Of a stretch of DNA of 64,000 bases, positions 2,306-56,250 are shown in pieces. Under the pieces are notes generated by a model. It worked only from the letters and a program-made list of their open reading frames with translations, was not told the origin of the DNA and did no database searches. The stretch covers positions 16,724-80,723 of IMG/VR virus record IMGVR_UViG_3300036820_000012; one strand, 5' to 3'. The position numbers were made by a program, and so were the translations under genes. The stretch's first letter is position 1, and every line of letters starts with the position of its first letter. Source of the stretch: a virus.

Positions 2306-2559
2306 CCGACCTACCGCGCGGCTCACTGAAAGCTGGAGCCGAAGCCATCGACGGCGACCGCAAGACCGCCGAGGCAGTCCTGCGCGCAGCAATGCCGCAC
2401 ATCGAACGGGACGTGCGCCGCCAGATGGCCCGGCAGATGAAGAACGGCGCCATCGGCCTGGACCTGTACGGCACCTACTACGCGTGGCAGCGGTCACTGA
2501 GCCACGCTGCGCGGTCCGGGCTGCTGCCTGAGCCCGCAGATACGGAGGAGTCCCGATGA
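2302..2559 (+). CDS. Hypothetical helical protein
   Basis: An 85-residue protein with a GTG start overlapping the preceding TGA by 4 bases. The central part (IERDVRRQMARQMKNG) is a charged amphipathic helix, followed by LYGTYYAWQRSLSHAARSG. No motif identifies a function. It is part of the tightly packed early operon. Confidence 0.6.
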   Translation: MTDLPRGSLKAGAEAIDGDRKTAEAVLRAAMPHIERDVRRQMARQMKNGAIGLDLYGTYYAWQRSLSHAARSGLLPEPADTEESR

Positions 2560-2861
2560 CCAGCCAGCCCACACCCGACACCCTCGCCGCGCTGCTGCGC
2601 GAGACCTTCGCCGAGTACGACGGCGACCACATGGGCTTCCACGTCTACAAGGCAGTCCTTCGCCAGGTGATCATCGTGGAGATCCGCGGCGTCGACCTGC
2701 TGCCGTTCAATCCCGGCGAGGGGCCGAGGGCGGTCCTGGATGACTACGCGGCGGTGATCGCCGCTGCGGGCCATGAGGTGTGCAGCACGGGCTCGGTGCT
2801 CATGGTGTCGCCCACCCCTCCCACCTCCCCACCTGACCCAGCGCTGAGGAGCGAGCAATGA
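2556..2861 (+). CDS. Hypothetical early protein
   Basis: A 101-residue protein with ATGA overlap at its start and a well-placed GGAGG upstream. The pattern LLRETFAEYDGDHMGFHVYK followed by VIIVEIRGVDL suggests an alpha/beta domain. The C-terminus is Pro/Ser-rich and probably disordered. Function unknown. Confidence 0.6.
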   Translation: MTSQPTPDTLAALLRETFAEYDGDHMGFHVYKAVLRQVIIVEIRGVDLLPFNPGEGPRAVLDDYAAVIAAAGHEVCSTGSVLMVSPTPPTSPPDPALRSEQ

Positions 2862-3262
2862 CCGAGACCACGACTACGGAGCGAGCGTTTGACCGCCGCT
2901 GCCTTTGCCGCAAGCCCATCAGGAAACTGGCCCCCGAGAACCCCGAAGGCAACGCGTGGGAGGACGAGAAGGGCGACCTCTGGCACGAAGGCGGTGCGCT
3001 GCACGCACCAGACCCGGCATGGAAGCCACCTGAGACCGCGCCCTTCGTTTACGGCGTCGTCTTCTGCGGCGCCGACTGGGTCAGCGACTACTTCGGCGGC
3101 TGCCACGCGCACTCCCGCTACCGGGTGGAGCGCCCCGGCGACGGCTACGAGCCAGCCGAAGCGTGCCCAGCCCATCTCGCTGACATGATCGCCTACCTCG
3201 TGGACGGCGATGACGTGGCGGCCACGGTGCACGTCCGGTGGGACGAGGAGGACTCCCCGTGA
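2858..3262 (+). CDS. Hypothetical Cys/Trp-rich early protein
   Basis: A 134-residue acidic protein. Cysteines in RRCLCRKP, VVFCGAD and FGGCHAHS, with later EACPAH, could form one metal site. It ends with an acidic tail (WDEEDSP). Start and stop overlap the neighbouring genes by 4 bases. No known family recognised. Confidence 0.6.
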   Translation: MTETTTTERAFDRRCLCRKPIRKLAPENPEGNAWEDEKGDLWHEGGALHAPDPAWKPPETAPFVYGVVFCGADWVSDYFGGCHAHSRYRVERPGDGYEPAEACPAHLADMIAYLVDGDDVAATVHVRWDEEDSP

Positions 3263-3621
3263 CCACCGCCACCCTCCCGCTCCAGCCGGGCTGCATCCGT
3301 CTCATGCTCATCTGGGACGTGGCAGGCATCAGGATCATCAACGCGGACGTCTTCACCGACGCCGCCGAGGCAGCCCAGGCCCGCGCGAACCTGCGGGCCG
3401 GCCTGGATAGCGAGTTCCGCGACTATCCCGTCTCGCTGCCGGGGTTCATCTCGGCCGCATCCCTCCGTGAGCATCTGGAACGGCAGGCAGGCATCGAGCA
3501 CGAACTCGGCGACGACTACTCCGAGCGCGACATGAACGACGCGTACGAGCACTGGGGCGCTGCCCGCGGGTTCCGGGAAGCCGTCAAGCACATCGATCAC
3601 GAACTGGAGACATCCCGATGA
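3259..3621 (+). CDS. Hypothetical early protein
   Basis: A 120-residue protein. I placed the start at GTG 3259 because it forms a GTGA overlap with the previous stop; an in-frame start at 3238 would overlap more. The N-terminal half looks beta-stranded (CIRLMLIWDVAGIRIINADV), and the C-terminal half is helical and acidic. It ends in HELETSR, similar to the DELETAR end of the next gene, which reflects a shared ribosome-site sequence. Function unknown. Confidence 0.6.
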   Translation: MTTATLPLQPGCIRLMLIWDVAGIRIINADVFTDAAEAAQARANLRAGLDSEFRDYPVSLPGFISAASLREHLERQAGIEHELGDDYSERDMNDAYEHWGAARGFREAVKHIDHELETSR

Positions 3622-3911
3622 CCACCCGCCAGCCACCCCCTGACCGTGACGCCCCCGAGGGCTACCACCTGGTCGCCGTCCCCGAGGCCATAGGGCACTG
3701 GAGGGTGGCCGACGGGAAGCCGTGCCGCTATGCCCGGCAGGGTCACATCCGGTGCGGCCAGCCGTCTGTCGCCGAGATCCAGCGCGGAACCGTGCGGCGC
3801 CAGTGGTGGGCCTACTGCGAAACCCACGCCTACAGCCGCTGGGTCGAGAACGGGCGCGTCTGGGTCTGGATCCTGCGGGCCGACGATGACGAACTGGAGA
3901 CGGCCCGATGA
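3618..3911 (+). CDS. Hypothetical early protein
   Basis: A 97-residue protein with ATGA overlaps at both ends. It has Cys and His pairs (KPCRYARQGHIRCGQ and YCETHAYS), a likely single zinc site, with Trp-rich strands following. No family recognised. Confidence 0.6.
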   Translation: MTTRQPPPDRDAPEGYHLVAVPEAIGHWRVADGKPCRYARQGHIRCGQPSVAEIQRGTVRRQWWAYCETHAYSRWVENGRVWVWILRADDDELETAR

Positions 3912-4120
3912 CCACCGAAGCTCTGGACTGGCCAGCCGCACGCAAGGCCATCGACACCGCCATAGAACGCGCCCGGATCGAGATCGGGCGCACGGTCGAG
4001 GGTGCGCTGTACGAGCTCGGTGACGTCGGGAAGCGCATCGAGGCCACCATCCTGAGCCAGGTGCAGGACTCCCTGGACGACATAGACCAGACCGTGCCAC
4101 CGGAGGAAGACGATGGCTGA
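3908..4120 (+). CDS. Hypothetical helical protein
   Basis: A 70-residue protein in ATGA overlap with the previous gene. The sequence is almost entirely amphipathic helix (ARKAIDTAIERARIEIGRTV) with an acidic tail. No motif. It overlaps the next gene by 8 bases, and the GGAGGAAG inside its 3' end serves as that gene's ribosome site. Confidence 0.6.
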   Translation: MTTEALDWPAARKAIDTAIERARIEIGRTVEGALYELGDVGKRIEATILSQVQDSLDDIDQTVPPEEDDG

Positions 4121-4361
4121 CGAGCGCCCCCCCAACATCCACCTCGGCGCCGAGGCGACCGGCATCAAGGTCGGCCACGCCTGGACCGATGAGTGGGGTA
4201 CCACCCACGGCTCGCTGGACTTCGCCGCCTACAGCGACATCGTGTTCCACGACCCGCACCAGCCGCGCCACGTTGCTGCACTGCTGGAGGAACTCGCCGC
4301 AGCGATGGAGGCCGAGGCCGCAAGAGCGGAAGCAGAGAAGGAGGAACCCGATGGCGACTGA
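4113..4361 (+). CDS. Hypothetical early protein
   Basis: An 82-residue protein with GGAGGAAG upstream of its ATG. A beta-rich N-terminal part (IHLGAEATGIKVGHAW and SDIVFHD) is followed by an Ala/Glu helix. It contains the AAGGAGG site for the next gene. Function unknown. Confidence 0.6.
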   Translation: MADERPPNIHLGAEATGIKVGHAWTDEWGTTHGSLDFAAYSDIVFHDPHQPRHVAALLEELAAAMEAEAARAEAEKEEPDGD

Positions 4362-4848
4362 GACTGACCCCGTAACCGCCGAACTGGCCAAGATCTGCGC
4401 GATCACGGACGCGGCGACGCAAGGCCCGTGGGAGCACCTGCTTGACAACGAGGTCACCTACGGCTATCGGCGCGAAGGCTCCAAGCACATCGCTACCTGG
4501 ATCGCCACAGCCGGCGAAGGTGACGAGGACATCAGCGAGGAGGAGGACGACGCCAACGCCGACTTCATTGCTGCTGCCCGGTCCTACGTCCCCGTTCTCC
4601 TCGCTGCGGTTGAAGCGGTGCTGGCGCTCCACCAGCCGGGGCCCTTCGTGCTGCTCGGCGCCCTGTGCAAGGACCATGCGGTGTGCCGCGACTTCTCGAT
4701 TACCAGCAATGAGGCAGATCGCGTCAGGGCCTGCCCGGACTGCTCGGCGACCGTCAGGGTCTCCTGCACCTGCGGCTACCCGGATATCGAACGCTGCCCG
4801 CACCGTGAGGCCATCACCGCCAAACTGCTCAGCGAGGAGGGGGAGTGA
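4351..4848 (+). CDS. Hypothetical protein with C-terminal zinc site
   Basis: A 165-residue protein; ATG at 4351 follows AAGGAGG by 8 bases, which decides the start. The N-terminal two thirds resemble phage proteins that begin with a GPWEH segment and later have ADFIAAARSYVP. The C-terminal part has CPDCSATVRVSCTCGYP and CPHR, a plausible zinc ribbon. Overlaps the next gene by 4 bases. The family was not named with confidence. Confidence 0.65.
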   Translation: MATETDPVTAELAKICAITDAATQGPWEHLLDNEVTYGYRREGSKHIATWIATAGEGDEDISEEEDDANADFIAAARSYVPVLLAAVEAVLALHQPGPFVLLGALCKDHAVCRDFSITSNEADRVRACPDCSATVRVSCTCGYPDIERCPHREAITAKLLSEEGE

Positions 4849-5201
4849 ACAAGGAAGCGCTGGACTGGCTCGGCGAGGTCGTCCCCGTCTTCCGGGAGGC
4901 ACCGGCCGCCAACTATCCGCTGGCCGCCATCGGCGGATGGTCGCACGCCAATACCACTGTCCGCGAGGTTGCCGCCGAACCGGAGTTCTGGGAGTACGCG
5001 GACCTGCCGCGAGCCGAACTGGAGGCGCGCATCGCGGCAGCCGACGGCATCGAGCCCGCCCACGCGCTCTACGGCTGCACGTTCCTGTCTGGCGAGGTTC
5101 TTCTCGTTGACGGCTGCCACCGCTGGGCTGCCGCCGCAGCCCTCGGCTTCACGATCGCGCCGGTAGAGATGGCGTTCGAGCTGGTGAAGACCGATGACTG
5201 A
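4845..5201 (+). CDS. ParB/Srx-like fold protein (putative)
   Basis: A 118-residue protein. Residues about 82-97 read EVLLVDGCHRWAAAAALG, close to the DGxHRxxAA motif of ParB/sulfiredoxin-fold proteins, with a Cys in place of the usual His in the third motif position. The upstream N-terminal half does not give a clear partner motif. Start is GTG in a GTGA overlap. The role could be DNA binding, nuclease or regulation; the motif is the only evidence. Confidence 0.5.
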   Translation: MNKEALDWLGEVVPVFREAPAANYPLAAIGGWSHANTTVREVAAEPEFWEYADLPRAELEARIAAADGIEPAHALYGCTFLSGEVLLVDGCHRWAAAAALGFTIAPVEMAFELVKTDD

Positions 5202-9286: not shown

Positions 9287-10678
9287 CTACTCGCGCGGCT
9301 CTACCTTCACCGAATCGCGGTCAAAGCCAGGCCCGCGCCGAGCCGGCAAGATCGTGATGCGGAAGCTTGCCGCCACCAGCCCCCGCCGTGTAGCCAGCGG
9401 AAGCGCCTCCCACTCCTCCAGCGTGATCCCCTCGTACTGGGCCAGCAGCCGCCGTCCCGGTGTAGCTGCGATCCGCTCCCGCACCGCGGCGATGCGCTCG
9501 TCAAACGAGGCGATGGCCCGCACCGTCACTGCCGGGTCCAGCCCCGGATGGTCGGCCAGTGCCTCCAGCGACTTCTGAGCCGCAGCCTTCCGCTTCTCAA
9601 GGACGGTGATCTCTGACGCTGCTGCAGGCTCCGGGGCCTTGCGGACGAGCGCGGCCAGCTGGTCCGAGGACAGCCACTCCAGCATCCGTCCCACGATGTA
9701 GGCGTCGAGGTGGGCCACCGACCGGTGCAACTGTCGCTTGCACGCCGGGTTCACGCAGCCGTAGCCCAGGCGCAGGATGCCGGCCCGCCTGGTCTGGCGC
9801 GGGCCGGCTGGCTTGCCGCAGCTGCCGCACAGCGCGATACCTGAGAGCAGGTGCCGACGCTGGCCGGAGGCGTTCGCGTACCCGGCGGCCCGCCCGGCGA
9901 GCATGGCGCACGCCAGTTCCCAGTCGTCGCGCTCCAGCACCGGCTCCCACGCCGCTTTCTGCTCTCCGTCCGGCATCAGCCCGGCGTAGCGCGGGTTCGT
10001 CACCACACGGCGGATCCCGGCATGCGTCCACGCCTTGCCGGTGACGGTCGTCTCGCCGCGGCTGTTGAGGCTGGCGGCGATGATCCGTGTGCCTTCCCCG
10101 GCCAGCACGCGGCGGGCCATCTCCCGGATGAGCGCAGTTTCGGCCGGGACGTGGGTGACGCCGTCGCTGGTGAAGCCGTAGAACCGGCCGCCGGGGCCGC
10201 CGGGGCGCACGAGGCCCTCGCGCCGCATCCGGTCGTACTGGGTTTTCTTGCGCCGGGAGATGGTGTCGGACTCGTTGCAGGCGCGGGCGACTTCCCAGCG
10301 CATCATCATCCGGTGGTCGGGGTTGTCGAAGTCGTACTGCCCGGCGATGGAGGCCACGGTGATGTGCCGGCCGTCGCGCAGGTCGAGCAGGTCTTCGAGG
10401 TCGCGGGGCTGGCGGACGATCCGGTCGCCCCAGTAGCTGACGATCGCGGCTGCCTTGCCTGCGGCGACGTCGGCGAGCATCTGGTCCCAGGCGGGGCGCT
10501 TGCGGTTGCGTTTCCAGGCAGATTTTGAGTGGTCGGTGTAAACGCCGGCGATCTCCCAGCCGCGCTGCCGGCACAGTTCCCGGCACTGGCGTTCCTGGTC
10601 GTCGGTTTTCGTGGTGTCCTCAAGGGCGGCAAGGCTGATCCTGCAGTAGATTGCAGCGCGCAGGCGTGGCTTAGGCAC
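9287..10678 (-). CDS. Large serine recombinase (putative phage integrase)
   Basis: A 463-residue protein. The N-terminus has YCRIS with Arg13 and the catalytic Ser15, followed by QERQCRELCRQRGWEI and the resolvase-type region ending IVRQPRDLEDLLDL. A recombinase domain (ARRVLAGEGTRIIAASLNSR) is followed by a zinc ribbon (CGSCGKPAG, then CVNPACKRQ) and a C-terminal coiled coil. This is the layout of serine integrases, which recombine attP with attB without supercoiling. It is the likely integrase of this element. Confidence 0.9.
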   Translation of the reverse strand: MPKPRLRAAIYCRISLAALEDTTKTDDQERQCRELCRQRGWEIAGVYTDHSKSAWKRNRKRPAWDQMLADVAAGKAAAIVSYWGDRIVRQPRDLEDLLDLRDGRHITVASIAGQYDFDNPDHRMMMRWEVARACNESDTISRRKKTQYDRMRREGLVRPGGPGGRFYGFTSDGVTHVPAETALIREMARRVLAGEGTRIIAASLNSRGETTVTGKAWTHAGIRRVVTNPRYAGLMPDGEQKAAWEPVLERDDWELACAMLAGRAAGYANASGQRRHLLSGIALCGSCGKPAGPRQTRRAGILRLGYGCVNPACKRQLHRSVAHLDAYIVGRMLEWLSSDQLAALVRKAPEPAAASEITVLEKRKAAAQKSLEALADHPGLDPAVTVRAIASFDERIAAVRERIAATPGRRLLAQYEGITLEEWEALPLATRRGLVAASFRITILPARRGPGFDRDSVKVEPRE

Positions 10679-49854: not shown

Positions 49855-50271
49855 CTAGCGGCCGATGAGCTCTATCGAGGTGCCGGTGACGGTGCCGCCG
49901 GAACAGGTCCAGGCGACCTGCCCCCAGCTGCCCAAGACGACGCCAGGCGATCCGTGCAGGCCCGCGGTGACGGTCGTGGCCCCGGCGGCGTCCAGGGTTG
50001 TGGACGCGACCGGGTACGGGTTGCCGGAAACGAACACGTTCAGGACCACGGCGAACGCAGGCGTCCCGGTCACGGCGCCGACGGTGACGTACAGGGTCAC
50101 GTCGGTGACGTCGCGCAGGTCGACCGGGGTCTCGGCGTTGGCCGCCTGCTCGCCTGATCCTGCGGCGATCGTGCCGTACGCGCCCGAATTCCCGGCCGCA
50201 CTGATCGTCGTGCCGGTTCCGGAGCGCGCGAGCGACCAGAGGCCCTTTGAGCGGTGGTCGATGTTGCCCAC
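49855..50271 (-). CDS. Putative head structural protein
   Basis: A 138-residue beta protein: VDLRDVTDVTLYVTVGAVTG and VVLNVFVSGNPYPVASTTLD. It lies between the MuF-like gene and the protein at 49448. Likely a minor capsid or decoration component. Confidence 0.6.
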   Translation of the reverse strand: MGNIDHRSKGLWSLARSGTGTTISAAGNSGAYGTIAAGSGEQAANAETPVDLRDVTDVTLYVTVGAVTGTPAFAVVLNVFVSGNPYPVASTTLDAAGATTVTAGLHGSPGVVLGSWGQVAWTCSGGTVTGTSIELIGR

Positions 50272-50280
50272 GTCCGCCTC

Positions 50281-52368
50281 CTAGGCTGCGAGATAGGCGG
50301 AATAGGCGTCAGCGGGAAGCGGTGAGCGGCCATCCGGGACGATCACGCAGCGGCAGCCGAAGTGATCGGGGCAGGCAGGCATCTCGTCAAGCGGGTACGG
50401 GCCATGAGCCTCGTATCCGTCACAGACGCTGCAGTTATGGACACGAATTCCAGCGGCGTAGAATTCGTGCGCTTGTTCGACTTCGATGTCGTAAACTGGG
50501 ATTGAGCCAATCCCAACGACGCAAAGACTGGTGACCGACCCGTCATGGCAATCCGCTATGAATGCGCTCAGTGCGGCAAGGAATTCACCAGGCATTCCCG
50601 CATCATTGGCAAGCGCGCGTTCTGTGGCCGGGAGTGCTACCAGCGAGCGTCCATCAAGCACCCCGACCGGGAGTGCCCCCAGTGCGGGCGCACCTTCAGT
50701 CCCAGGAAGGGATCGCGATCCGGCCCTCGTACCGGCAACCCGAACCGGGCCTACTGCACTCGCGAATGCTACGAAGCCAGCCGTGTCAACTCGGTCACCA
50801 AGACGTGTCCCGTCTGCGGCAAGGACTTCACTATCACGAAGGGTGCCATCGCTGACCGGTACAGGAGATGCTCGGCCGCTTGCAGGGACATTGATGCGAT
50901 CTACGTTGACTGCGAGCGGTGCGGCAAGCGGTTCCGGGCCGAGAAGCATCTCAACCGCCGCCACTGCTCCGAGGAATGCCGGCGACCGCCTGTCTACGTG
51001 ACCTGCATGACGTGCGGCGAAGAATTCCGCCCAACCCCCAGCGAGGCTGCCGGGCGCCGGTTCTGCTCCGTGGCGTGCTATCGGCGGTTCCGGGGCGAGA
51101 CGACCCTCGAAGCCAAGATCCGCGTCTGCCTTGAGGGACTCGGCATCGACTTCGAGCAGGAGATCCCGGTCGGCCGATGGGCAGTCGACTTCGCGCTGCG
51201 GTCGCACATGATCGCCATTGAGGCTGACGGCGACTACTGGCATGAAATCAGCGCCGCGCGGGACCGCAAACGCGATGCGGCTCTGACCCGGCTTGGTTGG
51301 CAGGTCGTGCGCTTCGGTGAAAGCGAGGTGAACGACGCGGCTGACCTTGGCAAGCTCGTTCTCGAGCGTCTGCACGACGTCACCGGGCTGCATCTGGCCG
51401 ATCTCGCGCCAGCCGTCCCGCGTCCAGACGGGGTGATCATCGGTCGCGAGCACCGACCGGCCTTCCGCGTGAATCGCGGTCAGCCCTCCGCCGTACTGGC
51501 GGCAGGTGGCAGCGGCTATACGGTGCTCACCTTGTGGAGTGAGGATGAACTCGCCGCACTGAAGTGACTCGATCGGCCGGTCACCATCGGGCGTCGCCAC
51601 CTTCGTTCCCGCTGGGAAACAAACGCGGTTGTCGCCGGCCGTGACCCAGTTAGCGCGCTCCACGCCGTACTGGGACATCACACTCAGCGCTGACGCCGAG
51701 ATGGACGACGCCATTGAGTGCGTGAGCACTACGCCGAGCGGCTGCGCGGTCCTCAGTGCCGCAGTGATTGCCTTCGCCATCGCGGCAGCCGTGGCACCTG
51801 CGGCGGCCAGGTTCACCAGGACGCCAGCCAGCGCATAGGCGATGCCTGCGGTGATGGCCGTCGCTACCTCGGCGGGTACTGCCTGCCCGGGATTCCGCTG
51901 GCCATCCGCAACGGCAGCGTTCCAGTCGAACGATCCGTCAGCACCTGCCGCAGACGCGGCCACGGCCAGCGTGGAAGCGAATCCCTCGCCAGCGGATGCC
52001 GTGAGGGCCGTCGTGATGGCAGCGAGGAAGTCAGCGAGGTGCGGTGAGTCCGCCGTGCCGGCGAGCATCCCGGACGCCACAGCAGCAGCCAGGGCGCGGA
52101 GTTCCTTCTTGCGCTGCACCGCCGTGTCGCCGTCAGTTGCCGGGGCGGGGCTGCCATCGGAGGTCATGTACGCCTCGCGGCGGAACAGCGCGACCATCGC
52201 AGCCACGTCGAGATCCGCAACCAGCTCAAGCCACGCCTTCGTGACCGCGGCTACCTGTGTGGCGTAGAGCGCGTCCTGGCGGTCGTAGACGTCTTTCCAG
52301 GTTCCGGTGAGCTGCCCCAGGATCAGGGTCGTCTCATCGGTGCTCATGCAGGCAGCAGTCCCGTCCAT
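50281..52368 (-). CDS. MuF-like minor head protein interrupted by an intein
   Basis: A 695-residue continuous ORF. Residues 1-249 are the N-extein, helical, ending YGVERANWVTAGDNRV. Residues 250-645 are an intein. The C-extein (646-695) starts CSVCDGYEAHGPYPLDEM and has HFGCRCVIVP, the Cys-rich C-terminal pattern of Mu F / SPP1 gp7-type proteins. Splicing would give a head protein of about 299 residues. Intein residues 268-608 are antisense to a complete plus-strand nuclease gene. A second ATG at 52347 is a possible start. Confidence 0.85.
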   Translation of the reverse strand: MDGTAACMSTDETTLILGQLTGTWKDVYDRQDALYATQVAAVTKAWLELVADLDVAAMVALFRREAYMTSDGSPAPATDGDTAVQRKKELRALAAAVASGMLAGTADSPHLADFLAAITTALTASAGEGFASTLAVAASAAGADGSFDWNAAVADGQRNPGQAVPAEVATAITAGIAYALAGVLVNLAAAGATAAAMAKAITAALRTAQPLGVVLTHSMASSISASALSVMSQYGVERANWVTAGDNRVCFPAGTKVATPDGDRPIESLQCGEFILTPQGEHRIAAATCRQYGGGLTAIHAEGRSVLATDDHPVWTRDGWREIGQMQPGDVVQTLENELAKVSRVVHLAFTEAHDLPTKPGQSRIAFAVPRGADFMPVVAVSLNGDHVRPQREVDCPSADRDLLLEVDAESLKADADLGFEGRLAPEPPIARHGAEPAPGSLAGGWAEFFAARHAGHVDRRSPAFLGAVAAVEMLLGPEPLAAPLAVNVDRINVPASGRASPVPVSDGTLRDSEVLAADGTRLGDRVDTAGFVAFASAVGPVRVAGTRAGSRSLPGTEGAPALGALPVGVLDGRSLVALPATERALANDAGMPGEFLAALSAFIADCHDGSVTSLCVVGIGSIPVYDIEVEQAHEFYAAGIRVHNCSVCDGYEAHGPYPLDEMPACPDHFGCRCVIVPDGRSPLPADAYSAYLAA
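50434..51621 (-). mobile_element. Intein (Hint domain) in the MuF-like gene
   Basis: 396 residues. Block A: CFPAGTKVATPDG with Cys1. Block B: SVLATDDHPVW with the T-x-x-H motif. Block F: VYDIEVEQAHEFYAAG. Block G: VHN followed by Cys+1. All splicing residues (Cys1, His of block B, penultimate His, terminal Asn, Cys+1) are present. No LAGLIDADG motif is encoded on the intein strand; the middle (about 340-610) is the antisense of a plus-strand nuclease gene. Confidence 0.9.
50545..51567 (+). CDS. Vsr/EDxHD-like homing endonuclease, antisense to the intein
   Basis: A 340-residue protein wholly within the intein on the opposite strand. Five CxxC...CxxxC zinc modules at residues 7-31, 44-75, 88-113, 123-145 and 154-178. 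The nuclease part (185-280) has TTLEAKIRVCLEGLG, WAVDFAL, AIEADGDYWH and DRKRDAALTRLGWQVVRF, the E-D-x-H-D layout of Vsr-like (DUF559-type) enzymes. The last ~55 residues are antisense to intein block B and may be a read-on tail. It probably cuts intein-less alleles. Confidence 0.8.
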   Translation: MAIRYECAQCGKEFTRHSRIIGKRAFCGRECYQRASIKHPDRECPQCGRTFSPRKGSRSGPRTGNPNRAYCTRECYEASRVNSVTKTCPVCGKDFTITKGAIADRYRRCSAACRDIDAIYVDCERCGKRFRAEKHLNRRHCSEECRRPPVYVTCMTCGEEFRPTPSEAAGRRFCSVACYRRFRGETTLEAKIRVCLEGLGIDFEQEIPVGRWAVDFALRSHMIAIEADGDYWHEISAARDRKRDAALTRLGWQVVRFGESEVNDAADLGKLVLERLHDVTGLHLADLAPAVPRPDGVIIGREHRPAFRVNRGQPSAVLAAGGSGYTVLTLWSEDELAALK

Positions 52369-52447
52369 GCGCCCTCTGCTTCCGGCGCTGCGTCACCGCA
52401 GCCGGTGAAACGGAGTGATGACTGCCCTTGCCGGCGCATCGGCCTGC

Positions 52448-52753
52448 TCAGAGCGTCGTGCCGCCTCGGAGCGCCCACCCGGAGGCGTGCGGCGCGATGT
52501 CCTCGCCAGCGATGTGCTCAGCGACAGGGCGAGACGGCCCCAGCGTCCGCAGCATCGTCCAGGCGCATGCCCGGACTGCCTCAAGGTCACGGACGGCCAG
52601 GACGGGGAAACCGCGGACGGTCTCGCCTTCAACCGTTGCGTCCGCGTCCCAGAGGTCGCCGTCGTGGCGGGTGTAGGTGACCATGGCGGGAGGCAGGTGG
52701 GTGGTTTCGAGGACCGGCTCGGGTGTGCCGATGCGGTGCCGCTCGGCGCTCAA
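52448..52753 (-). CDS. Hypothetical protein
   Basis: A 101-residue protein starting with TTG in a TTGA overlap. AMVTYTRHDGDLWDADATVE and VLAVRDLEAVRACAWTMLRT suggest a small alpha/beta protein. It lies between portal and MuF-like genes. Function unknown. Confidence 0.55.
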   Translation of the reverse strand: MSAERHRIGTPEPVLETTHLPPAMVTYTRHDGDLWDADATVEGETVRGFPVLAVRDLEAVRACAWTMLRTLGPSRPVAEHIAGEDIAPHASGWALRGGTTL

Positions 52754-52888: not shown

Positions 52889-53083
52889 TCACCCCGCCTC
52901 GTGGATCTCCGTCCAGCCGGCCGGGTACTGGTGGCCGCCTGCCGGGTGGGACGTGACCGCGAACATCAGCGATGTCCCGCGCTCAGCCAGTCGCGTGTTC
53001 ACCTTGTCGACCAGGCGGCGTGCCTGCTCAATGTCGGCGTAGTCCTCGGCGGTGGGGCTGGAGTCAGGTGGCGGCTGGCTCAT
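52889..53083 (-). CDS. Hypothetical protein
   Basis: A 64-residue protein in ATGA overlap with the portal stop. DYADIEQARRLVDKVNTRLA is helical and a strand (SLMFAVTSH) follows. Function unknown. Confidence 0.55.
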   Translation of the reverse strand: MSQPPPDSSPTAEDYADIEQARRLVDKVNTRLAERGTSLMFAVTSHPAGGHQYPAGWTEIHEAG

Positions 53084-54645
53084 CGGCGCTCCGTGAACGC
53101 GCGCCGGAATGACTCAGCGAGGCGGTCCCGGTAGATGCCCTCGGCGCTGCTCACCTGCTTGCCCTTGGCGCCGGGCTTCTTGCCGGTGGCGCCAGGCTTG
53201 GCGTCGTCGTCATCGGGCTTGTCCTGGTCGTCGTCCTGGTCTGCGTCGTCCTTGGCGTCATCGTCCTGGCCTGGCGGTGGCGGGACGGGCAGCAGGCCGC
53301 TTCCGCCCCCGGCCGCAGCCTGGACCAGCGCGGCGGACAGTGCCTTCAGGTCGGACGTCAGGACCATGTTCTGGCGGTTGACGATGAACGCATCGTCGCC
53401 GCCGTCAACGGCAGGCTCGCCGATCTCGGTGCGGTACTTATTCAGGGTGTATGCGCCATCGCGCAGCCGTATGTCACGGATCTGCTCGACGACCATCGAG
53501 TCCCGGTAGTCCACGTCGCCGAACTTGGAATGCCAGTCCTCAACGCCGAAGCCGTTCTTCGCGATGCAGAAGTTCAGCTTCTCCAGGACCAGCTCAGCGA
53601 TTGGCTGGCAGGTGTTGAGCTCAAGCGTTCGGTGCTGCGAATCGCCAGTGCCGCCGCCGAGGTTGCCCGACTCGATGACCATCGCCTCAGCCGGCGGGAC
53701 GCCGTACTGGGCCAGGATCTCGTCGCGCGCCGATTCCTTCGCCGACAGGACATCGGTTAGCTTGCCGGTCTGCAGTTCCTGGAGCGTCGCCCCGCCGCGG
53801 GTCATCCACGGGACGCCGATGTTGCGCGACCCGAGGTTCTGCGCGGCGGCCTGGTTGCGCCACTTCTCGAGCTCGGTCTCGCTCCTGGTGGCGGGGAAGT
53901 CGGCGTGCAGCGCCGGCGGCAGGCCTTTCCTCAACATCTCTTTTTCCGTGGCCGCAGCGAACAGCCAGATCGTGATCGGTGTCATCGCGGCGTGCGTCGG
54001 GCCGATGCCGAACACGCCCGGCCGGGCCGAGTCCAGCGAGATGTGGATGACCTCGCGCTCCTCGAAGACCGCCCGCTGGCCGTAGTCGGTGACCTGCACG
54101 TAGCGCAGCACCTTGCCGTGCTCGTCGGCGACGGGGGTAGTGGTCGGGCAGTCGAGGTTGTACAGCGCGATCGGCTGGCTGCCAGACCAGACGACCTCGA
54201 GGTATGCGTCGCCGAACACGAGCAGGTCAGCGATCAGGTTCCGCAGCAGCTGGCGGATGTCCTGCGTCGGGTTGCAGAACGAGTAGAACCGCTCCAGGGC
54301 GACGACGGCCGGGGGCTTGTCCGGCATCTTCTGGTCGCCTTCGCCCTCGTCAGCGTCCCAGTCGCTGACAAGACCGCCGGCCGTAATCGTTCGGGCGATG
54401 ACCTGCACGCACGTCCACGACCACGGGCAGGTCAAATACGCCTGCCACAGTTCCTGCAGGGTGGAGCGCCGGTCGGTGCCGGTCGCCTCGCCCATCGTGG
54501 CTGACTGCTCGTTTATCCCGCCCTGCGGGATGCCCGGGATGAACCCGGACCGCTCTGGGAGGGTGGTCCGCTGAGCCGGGGCGCGCGACTTCGCTACCTC
54601 GGTGACGCCTTCGCGTTCACGGCGCAGCGAGGGAAGGAAGCGCAC
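53080..54645 (-). CDS. Portal protein
   Basis: A 521-residue protein starting with GTG after GGGAGG. WQAYLTCPWSWTCVQVIART, NLIADLLVFGDAYLEVVWSG, PIALYNLDCPTT and FGIGPTHAAMTPITIW follow the usual portal core, and the C-terminus is acidic and basic low complexity (DDDQDKPDDDDAKPG). It is next to terminase. The portal forms the DNA entry ring at the capsid vertex. Confidence 0.85.
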   Translation of the reverse strand: MRFLPSLRREREGVTEVAKSRAPAQRTTLPERSGFIPGIPQGGINEQSATMGEATGTDRRSTLQELWQAYLTCPWSWTCVQVIARTITAGGLVSDWDADEGEGDQKMPDKPPAVVALERFYSFCNPTQDIRQLLRNLIADLLVFGDAYLEVVWSGSQPIALYNLDCPTTTPVADEHGKVLRYVQVTDYGQRAVFEEREVIHISLDSARPGVFGIGPTHAAMTPITIWLFAAATEKEMLRKGLPPALHADFPATRSETELEKWRNQAAAQNLGSRNIGVPWMTRGGATLQELQTGKLTDVLSAKESARDEILAQYGVPPAEAMVIESGNLGGGTGDSQHRTLELNTCQPIAELVLEKLNFCIAKNGFGVEDWHSKFGDVDYRDSMVVEQIRDIRLRDGAYTLNKYRTEIGEPAVDGGDDAFIVNRQNMVLTSDLKALSAALVQAAAGGGSGLLPVPPPPGQDDDAKDDADQDDDQDKPDDDDAKPGATGKKPGAKGKQVSSAEGIYRDRLAESFRRAFTERR

Positions 54646-54717: not shown

Positions 54718-56250
54718 CTAGGCGCCGAACGGGGACCGCTGCACAGTGCCCCGTCGCGGGTCGCGCTCCACGGTGACCGGCTGCTCCCACGGGGCCGCAT
54801 ACTGGTCTGGCCGTACCGCCCAGGTGCCCCTGGCGTCCAGTACCTCGGCGATGCCGGGAGTGGGAGTGGCGCCGAGCGTGGGGAAGTCGGGGCCGCCGCC
54901 GAGGTTCAGCAGCACGTACCTGGTCGCGTCAGCGAGGTGGTCGGGAGCGCGGGTGTCGGCGTCTTCCGGGTCGCCCGTGGGGGCGTGCGGGAGGCTTTCC
55001 ATCTCCGCGTACCAGTTACGGCAGGTGGTGAAGACATGCAATTTCGGGCAATCGTCCCAGCCTTGCGCACGATGATGCGGGCACGCCGGGGCGTCTTTGA
55101 GGTATGAGTGGATGCGCTGCCAGCCCGCGATGCGCGACCCGGGGCCCTTCCCGGCCGCGCTGAGGTGGCAGCCCTCGTCGGCGTAGACATCGGCGATCGG
55201 CTTGGCGTCACCCCGGACCGCCCACATCGCATCATCTGCGTAGCGGACCGCGACCTGCTCGCCGGCTTCGGCGGCAAGGATGCGTTTCGCCTGGTCGGCC
55301 TCGCCGACGCCGGGCTGATACGCCTCGCGGTAGCACCACAGCCGGCCGTCTTCGTCCTCGGCGATCCAGATGACCGCCCATGGCGCGGTGTAGCCCCAGT
55401 CCACGCCTGCGTACCTGCGCCATGACTCCGGGATGCTGAACGGCTGGACGACGTGCCGGTCCCACGACAGTTCCGGGAACACCTGGCCCTCGAAAGTGGA
55501 CCAGTCGCCGTCTTCGTAAGCTTTCCGCAGCCTTTCGGGCAGGCCGGACAGCGCTTTGCGGTAGTCCTCACCCAGCTGCGGCGTATCGGCCAGCCTCGCC
55601 TGGATGAAGATCCGGCGCCGGCCGTACCGGTCGGTGATCTCGGTCTCGCCGTGCCGGGTCGCGTCGATAAAGTCGCGCTTCACCGCGGCGTGAGCAACCT
55701 GCCCCGGGTTGGTGGCGCTGCGGATTCCCAGGCACGGCACGCCGAGCACGCCGGAACGCACCCGGGAGTACAGCAGGTCGGTGACCTCGGCGGGGATGGT
55801 TGTGCGCTCGTCGATCACCAGCAGGTTGATCTCCGCCGACAGCAGCGCGGACGCTTCCTGCAGGTTCTTGGCGTGACCGAACGTCAGCGAGGACCCTGTG
55901 AGCATCGTGAGCTCGTACTTGCTCTCATTCCACCGGGCGCCGATCGTCTTCGCGTACCCGTAACGCGCGAGCATCCGCAGCACGGACTGCTGCAGTTCGG
56001 GGAAGGTGCGCCGGAACCAGAACGCCTGCAGCCCCGGATACCGGGAACAGGCACGCAGGGTGTACATGAGCAGGCTCGTGGATTTAGAGCCGCCAGCCGC
56101 GCCACCGTAAAGGACATCCAGGTTCTCATCCGGCAGATCCAGGAAACGTGTCTGCGGGCCCGGGTTCGGGACGAACCCCAGCCGGTCGAAAACGTCGTCC
56201 CGCGGCGGCTCAAACGCTGCAGCTGCTGCTTCCAGCCATTGCACGGTCAT
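54718..56250 (-). CDS. Terminase large subunit
   Basis: A 510-residue protein. Walker A: YGGAAGGSKSTSLL at 48-61. Walker B-like: INLLVIDERTTIP. The nuclease domain begins YAGVDWGYTAPWAVIWIA with acidic metal ligands, and HLADATRYVLL occurs near the end. It packages DNA through the portal. Start and terminase small subunit stop overlap as TGATG. Confidence 0.9.
   Translation of the reverse strand: MTVQWLEAAAAAFEPPRDDVFDRLGFVPNPGPQTRFLDLPDENLDVLYGGAAGGSKSTSLLMYTLRACSRYPGLQAFWFRRTFPELQQSVLRMLARYGYAKTIGARWNESKYELTMLTGSSLTFGHAKNLQEASALLSAEINLLVIDERTTIPAEVTDLLYSRVRSGVLGVPCLGIRSATNPGQVAHAAVKRDFIDATRHGETEITDRYGRRRIFIQARLADTPQLGEDYRKALSGLPERLRKAYEDGDWSTFEGQVFPELSWDRHVVQPFSIPESWRRYAGVDWGYTAPWAVIWIAEDEDGRLWCYREAYQPGVGEADQAKRILAAEAGEQVAVRYADDAMWAVRGDAKPIADVYADEGCHLSAAGKGPGSRIAGWQRIHSYLKDAPACPHHRAQGWDDCPKLHVFTTCRNWYAEMESLPHAPTGDPEDADTRAPDHLADATRYVLLNLGGGPDFPTLGATPTPGIAEVLDARGTWAVRPDQYAAPWEQPVTVERDPRRGTVQRSPFGA

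Follow-up and report, generated by a model that had tools for sequence, protein, structure and literature searches.

Inteins are usually described as carrying their homing nuclease as an in-frame domain, and the canonical large inteins, such as PI-SceI and the PI-MtuI RecA intein, have an in-frame LAGLIDADG or HNH endonuclease domain. As such a nuclease is an in-frame domain, its expression and evolution are tied to those of the host protein. Dassa and colleagues are said to have described, in 2009, fractured genes in which a nuclease of the EDxHD family lies between the halves of a split intein. The DUF559 domain has been placed in the EDxHD family (PMC9403480), and I-Bth0305I has been described among group I intron enzymes (PMC3943268). 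Homing endonuclease genes (HEGs) in antisense orientation occur in group I introns, for example I-DsqI, Didymium L2066 (PMC9548176). Our literature search, which did not cover the original fractured-genes paper, found no description of an HEG lying within an intein on the opposite strand or in a different reading frame.

The locus reported here lies in a 64,000-nucleotide stretch of phage DNA (hereafter the window), taken from a virus record of 80.7 kb. We interpret it as a phage head gene that carries a mobile intein, within which an EDxHD HEG on the opposite strand both mobilises the intein and encodes its disordered linker. We assign this interpretation a probability of roughly 0.83; splicing, cutting, homing and expression are inferred. 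Sequence comparison establishes that there are two coding frames with homologues, that the empty sites are exact and that both frames are under selection.

The host gene is a MuF-like head-morphogenesis gene of 695 codons on the minus strand (50281-52368), a single ORF with an in-frame intein and with known intein-less homologues. Phrog matches place the portal (53080-54645) and terminase (54718-56250) genes next to it. A large serine recombinase with Resolvase and Recombinase domains (9287-10678, minus strand) suggests a temperate phage. The intein comprises residues 250-645 (396 residues; 50434-51621, minus strand) and is flanked by an N-extein of residues 1-249 (51622-52368) and a C-extein that starts with CSVC and runs to the stop codon (50281-50433). 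All class 1 splicing residues are present (C250, T309-D-D-H312, H644, N645 and C646 at the +1 position). The MuF intein matched Hint_2 (1.4e-11), the intein C-terminal region TIGR01443 of NCBIfam (1.9e-5) and Intein_splicing, and the Hint fold required of a class 1 intein is supported by HMM, predicted model and fold match alike. Alignment to intein-less homologues delimited both exteins: in six related IMG/VR contigs, located through the window's portal gene, MuF is joined exactly between residues 249 and 646. An earlier first-pass annotation, made from the sequence alone, had proposed this junction as a test, and its intein coordinates, which run from Cys250 to Asn645 with Cys646 following, proved exact. 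The closest relative, L002 (portal 77% identity), has an Ala1 intein in its portal gene (2336-4933), which by our reading looks LAGLIDADG-type and is class 3-like by motif.

Inside the intein, on the plus strand, lies a 340-codon ORF (50545-51567) that we annotate as a homing endonuclease gene from its domain matches and from orthologues in two related contigs, L068 and L069. It is codon-on-codon with the intein frame, each plus codon lying opposite one minus codon. The first-pass annotation had described a minus-strand ORF reading through the intein with a complete plus-strand ORF in register inside it, and both ORFs were recovered at these coordinates. The encoded protein carries five CxxC...CxxxC zinc modules (residues 7-178; 50563-51078), probably the DNA-reading part, followed by an EDxHD/Vsr-like (DUF559) core (residues 185-265; 51097-51339) with E189, D215, E226 and H233. 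HMM searches with the ORF matched DUF559 (1e-12), MTES_1575 (1e-10) and phrog_1271 'HNH endonuclease' (2.2e-24). The core matched the PDB profile of 3r3p, I-Bth0305I (E 1.7e-15), which was also its best Foldseek match (E 4e-6, TM 0.80 by target). These results bear out the zinc modules and E-D-x-H-D core claimed earlier, and the lack of a nuclease-domain match in profile searches, which would have refuted the claim, did not materialise. The ORF has two of the features expected of an EDxHD homing endonuclease, namely a Vsr-like core with conserved acidic residues and a histidine, and extra DNA-binding modules. Its unstructured tail (residues 291-340 and stop; 51415-51567) lies antisense to the intein splicing blocks. 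The idea that this tail is a pure by-product of the opposite frame is weakened by partial similarity, a weak match, to the C-terminus of a free-standing nuclease, L143.

AlphaFold models of the two proteins were built on small alignments (9 and 11 sequences). The intein model was confident at residues 1-88 and 357-396, and matched intein-like and gp41-1/DnaB splicing domains. The first of these segments is the N-splicing half (51358-51621; pLDDT mostly 86-93, 72 in the last block), with block B TDDH at intein residues 60-63, and the second is the C-splicing half (50434-50553; pLDDT 82-91), which ends in RVHN and matches TIGR01443. Between them, the linker (residues 89-356; 50554-51357) is predicted to be disordered, with pLDDT below 50 throughout, and is the antisense of the functional part of the nuclease. 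Most of the first 290 residues of the nuclease were modelled confidently and residues 291-332 poorly (pLDDT below 50). As nuclease residue i lies opposite intein residue 360-i in the DNA, the structured parts of the two proteins share only about 19 codons. The earlier suggestion that the linker is a by-product of the antisense frame is supported by its predicted disorder and by its weaker conservation in the intein frame than in the nuclease frame.

Relatives were reached via the portal gene, weak tblastn matches to Vibrio Hint proteins, a C-terminal intein DNA pattern and profile scans. Single-protein searches of viral contigs with the whole MuF-intein or the nuclease as query yielded none, and neither did a DNA search against phages or two scans of genome contigs. 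Antisense nucleases in MuF-type inteins form 19 clusters at 70% identity, or 13 at 50%, and all are in the same register; the 19 clusters may share ancestry, so that the common register does not represent 19 independent events. They include three Vibrio phages and about 14 further IMG/VR clusters, one contig having a GC content of 37%, so that the two-way coding recurs in phages unrelated to that of the window. L068 and L069 have the intein at the same MuF site, and their antisense zinc-EDxHD ORFs are 41% and 39% identical to that of the window, with conserved zinc cysteines and no TTA, CTA or TCA codons. The antisense ORF is thus conserved in homologous MuF inteins, in these orthologues and in further clusters, which the first-pass annotation had proposed to test. 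The antisense nucleases have an invariant E...D...E core in common; those of the window, L068 and L069 have zinc modules, and most of the remaining members have HTH modules. No significant Pfam nuclease match was obtained for the antisense ORFs of L064 and L044 on their own. One MuF intein with an antisense nuclease inside, L065 (2595-3380), has Ala rather than Cys at position 1.

The weak Vibrio matches proved to be MuF inteins of phages 1.265.O, 1.266.O and 1.082.O, at 44-45% GC, and each contains an in-register antisense ORF of about 246 codons that had not been annotated; that of 1.265.O (DUF559 7e-13) is 51% identical to those of the other two. The MuF of Vibrio phage 1.198.B lacks the intein and has 90.7% protein identity to that of the intein-bearing 1.265.O. 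The junction reads FHYN/CRSTM when empty and FHWN-ACARG...VHN/CRSTM when filled. A Cys start for the Vibrio intein was overturned by this empty-site comparison and by the G5-T6-x-I8 spacing, which indicate an Ala1 intein. The residues REYRVL in the Vibrio nuclease tail lie opposite block B TDEHPV, and in our reading their conservation is explained by the sense strand. Intein-less homologues of the window and of the Vibrio phage provide the element-present and element-absent alleles expected around a homing endonuclease.

Third codon positions of the nuclease are first positions of the sense frame, and these should be the most variable if the nuclease is under selection. Between the window and L069, sense positions 1, 2 and 3 of the linker differ at 0.673, 0.442 and 0.446, and 87 codons differ at position 1 only versus 30 at position 3 only (p=1.3e-7). 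The order is reversed in the N-splicing half (0.438, 0.396 and 0.740; p=3.8e-5). The same strand switch was present in the L068/L069 and Vibrio pairs. It held with a sense-guided alignment (Vibrio) and with a neutral nucleotide alignment (window/L069), and this agreement indicates that it is not an alignment artefact; under neutral alignment the window/L068 switch was weak (z=1.4). As judged from aligned codons, conservation follows the nuclease frame in the linker and the intein frame in the splicing blocks, and both strands are selected.

The codon-on-codon register can accommodate any nuclease sequence, because the only codons that would stop the intein are TTA, CTA and TCA, each of which can be replaced by a synonymous one. 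A plus-strand ORF could also stay open by chance in GC-rich DNA, with the sense-strand linker as the real product. Long antisense ORFs are common in the window, one of 409 codons lies spuriously over a neighbouring gene, and openness by itself at 68% GC is weak evidence of coding. The window's ORF has none of the three codons where the phage's own codon use predicts 2.4, which is not significant (P=0.083), and we dropped depletion in the window alone as evidence. The first-pass annotation had predicted such depletion relative to free-standing genes; this depletion was not significant for the window taken singly and was upheld across 14 contiguous cases, with 0 codons against about 94 expected, the nearest free-standing relative, L143, having 2 among 240. 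Contiguous cases were defined as having none of these codons, and were therefore picked as open, so what carries weight is that frames at 37-45% GC stay open far more than chance would allow. Each AT-rich contiguous case should have about 13-21 of the codons and has none (P 1e-7 to 1e-12; about 1e-12 for L064 alone). In four cases in which the intein frame is interrupted they return, at 5-14 versus about 17 expected. A free-standing-looking zinc/EDxHD gene at 38% GC, L149 (2830-4008), also has almost none, which is mostly explained by the codon use of its contig; a 422-codon open antisense frame there has no Hint match. For the window ORF, the homologues in L068 and L069 and divergence that follows the nuclease frame exclude chance, and the DUF559 match, the conserved cysteines and the recurrence of the layout in 37-45% GC phages argue the same way. 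In our view the orthologues and the position switch already refute a chance frame, leaving it next to no probability.

Where the double frame is broken, in four clusters (L033, L034, L041 and L060), it is always the intein frame that is lost and the nuclease that is intact; the converse, a disrupted plus ORF beside the intein in most homologues, which the first-pass annotation had named as a refutation, was not seen. The sense stops of L033, L041 and L060 are confined to the nuclease region. In L034/L052 (32-33% GC; oriented 1493-2284) the N-intein ORF ends at a stop, the C-intein part has its own ATG-led ORF of about 37 residues, and an antisense EDxHD ORF lies between the two. Sense stops beside an intact nuclease would be expected if the intein were dead, with MuF broken or replaced and the sense frame incidental. 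We consider this very unlikely, since the window and 14 other clusters have an uninterrupted sense frame, which in the AT-rich cases cannot be due to chance, since the splicing blocks show sense-frame conservation and vary at third positions, and since the interrupted cases retain both intein halves and an ATG-led C-part ORF. The interrupted cases resemble split inteins that arose from the contiguous antisense layout or in parallel with it, the direction being inferred. The window itself is not a fractured gene: its host gene is one ORF, and division into two ORFs occurs only in relatives such as L034. A formerly free-standing nuclease gene may also have been caught in the intein and no longer drive homing, whether as a fixed passenger or in inter-phage exclusion. 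The nearest relative of the window nuclease overall, L143 (47% identity), comes from another phage, no intein signature was found near its gene, and many other relatives are free-standing. Conservation of active-site residues and zinc cysteines, purifying selection on the nuclease frame and the sporadic occurrence of the intein among close relatives make this unlikely, but not to be dismissed. Finally, antisense HEGs in group I introns (PMC9548176) offer a precedent for a self-splicing RNA intron whose open protein frame is incidental. This was already disfavoured, and we give it virtually no credence: no Rfam match was found over 50000-52600, which leaves a group I ribozyme without support, each end of the insert bears complete in-frame intein motifs, and its predicted structure is a Hint fold.

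Under the preferred interpretation of a mobile intein with an opposite-strand nuclease gene, the nuclease, with its zinc array and EDxHD core, would be made separately from the plus strand and would cut MuF genes that lack the intein in co-infecting phages, whereupon repair would copy the whole intein. In translation of the MuF mRNA, the nuclease region would be read in antisense, giving a disordered linker between the splicing-domain halves, and the intein would then splice itself out of MuF. The first-pass annotation had likewise proposed that the nuclease spreads the intein while expressed from the opposite strand; our comparisons favour this, and its account of the linker is supported, with cutting, plus-strand expression and MuF splicing remaining inferences. 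Most members have a Shine-Dalgarno sequence ahead of the antisense ATG, and in nine of them its core precedes the ATG by 7 nt. In the window, we noted a weak ribosome-binding-like GGTGA (50530-50534, plus strand) 10 nt before the antisense ATG, and a tentative, non-canonical promoter-like TGGACA-N15-TAGAAT (50438-50464, plus strand) 80 nt upstream. The latter pair was equalled in 1% of mononucleotide shuffles and missed by a stricter scan, and both candidates are weak. A sigma-70 promoter for the antisense gene was unsupported across members.

Other arrangements of intein and nuclease were also observed. DUF559/EDxHD ORFs lie in the same-strand +1 frame of inteins at 22 loci; five of six tested matched DUF559 (E 6e-7 to 7.5e-14), the nuclease third codon position was the most variable in pairwise comparison, and both hosts checked (L080 and L124) were helicase genes. 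At four loci, a zinc/EDxHD nuclease is encoded in the +2 sense frame of an overlapping intein ORF. The conventional in-frame layout occurs with an EDxHD nuclease in L036/L125 (L036 in MuF) and L161-L163, and with an HNH-like domain in L035. Inteins may host EDxHD HEGs in any alternative frame (antisense in register in MuF, +1 in helicases, +2 in others), separating nuclease expression from splicing, and the antisense form, in which the nuclease is already a gene of its own, may be a stage that gives rise to split inteins and fractured genes once the linker is free to gain stops; we hold this reading as a whole to be about as likely as not.

In the antisense layout the selfish gene is independent, but it is concealed within codons that also have to leave the host protein's frame open. 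It is a clean natural case of two proteins specified by one set of codons, one from each strand, and the reason why the register suits any sequence is simple. Relatives whose nuclease is intact while the intein frame is broken suggest a route from contiguous to split inteins, and make a long-standing question testable. None of the nucleases within the three deposited Vibrio phage genes had been annotated, so that many others may have gone unnoticed.

The locus combines features of several known systems. As in canonical large inteins, the Hint domain is split at the usual position by a nuclease-coding insert, and the element is inserted exactly at a conserved protein site; unlike in these, the nuclease is a separate gene on the other strand, and the insert contributes no more than a disordered linker to the intein. 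The nuclease core resembles I-Bth0305I, its best profile and fold match, and both have N-terminal DNA-reading modules, but the window gene is antisense in an intein and has zinc modules. As in fractured genes, an intein and an EDxHD-type HEG share one locus, and L034/L052 resemble the fractured layout with the HEG antisense; the window intein differs in being contiguous, with both strands coding. As in group I introns with an antisense HEG, the HEG lies on the strand opposite the host gene, inside a self-splicing element. However, the overlap in those introns is non-coding RNA, whereas in the window the same codons encode protein on both strands.
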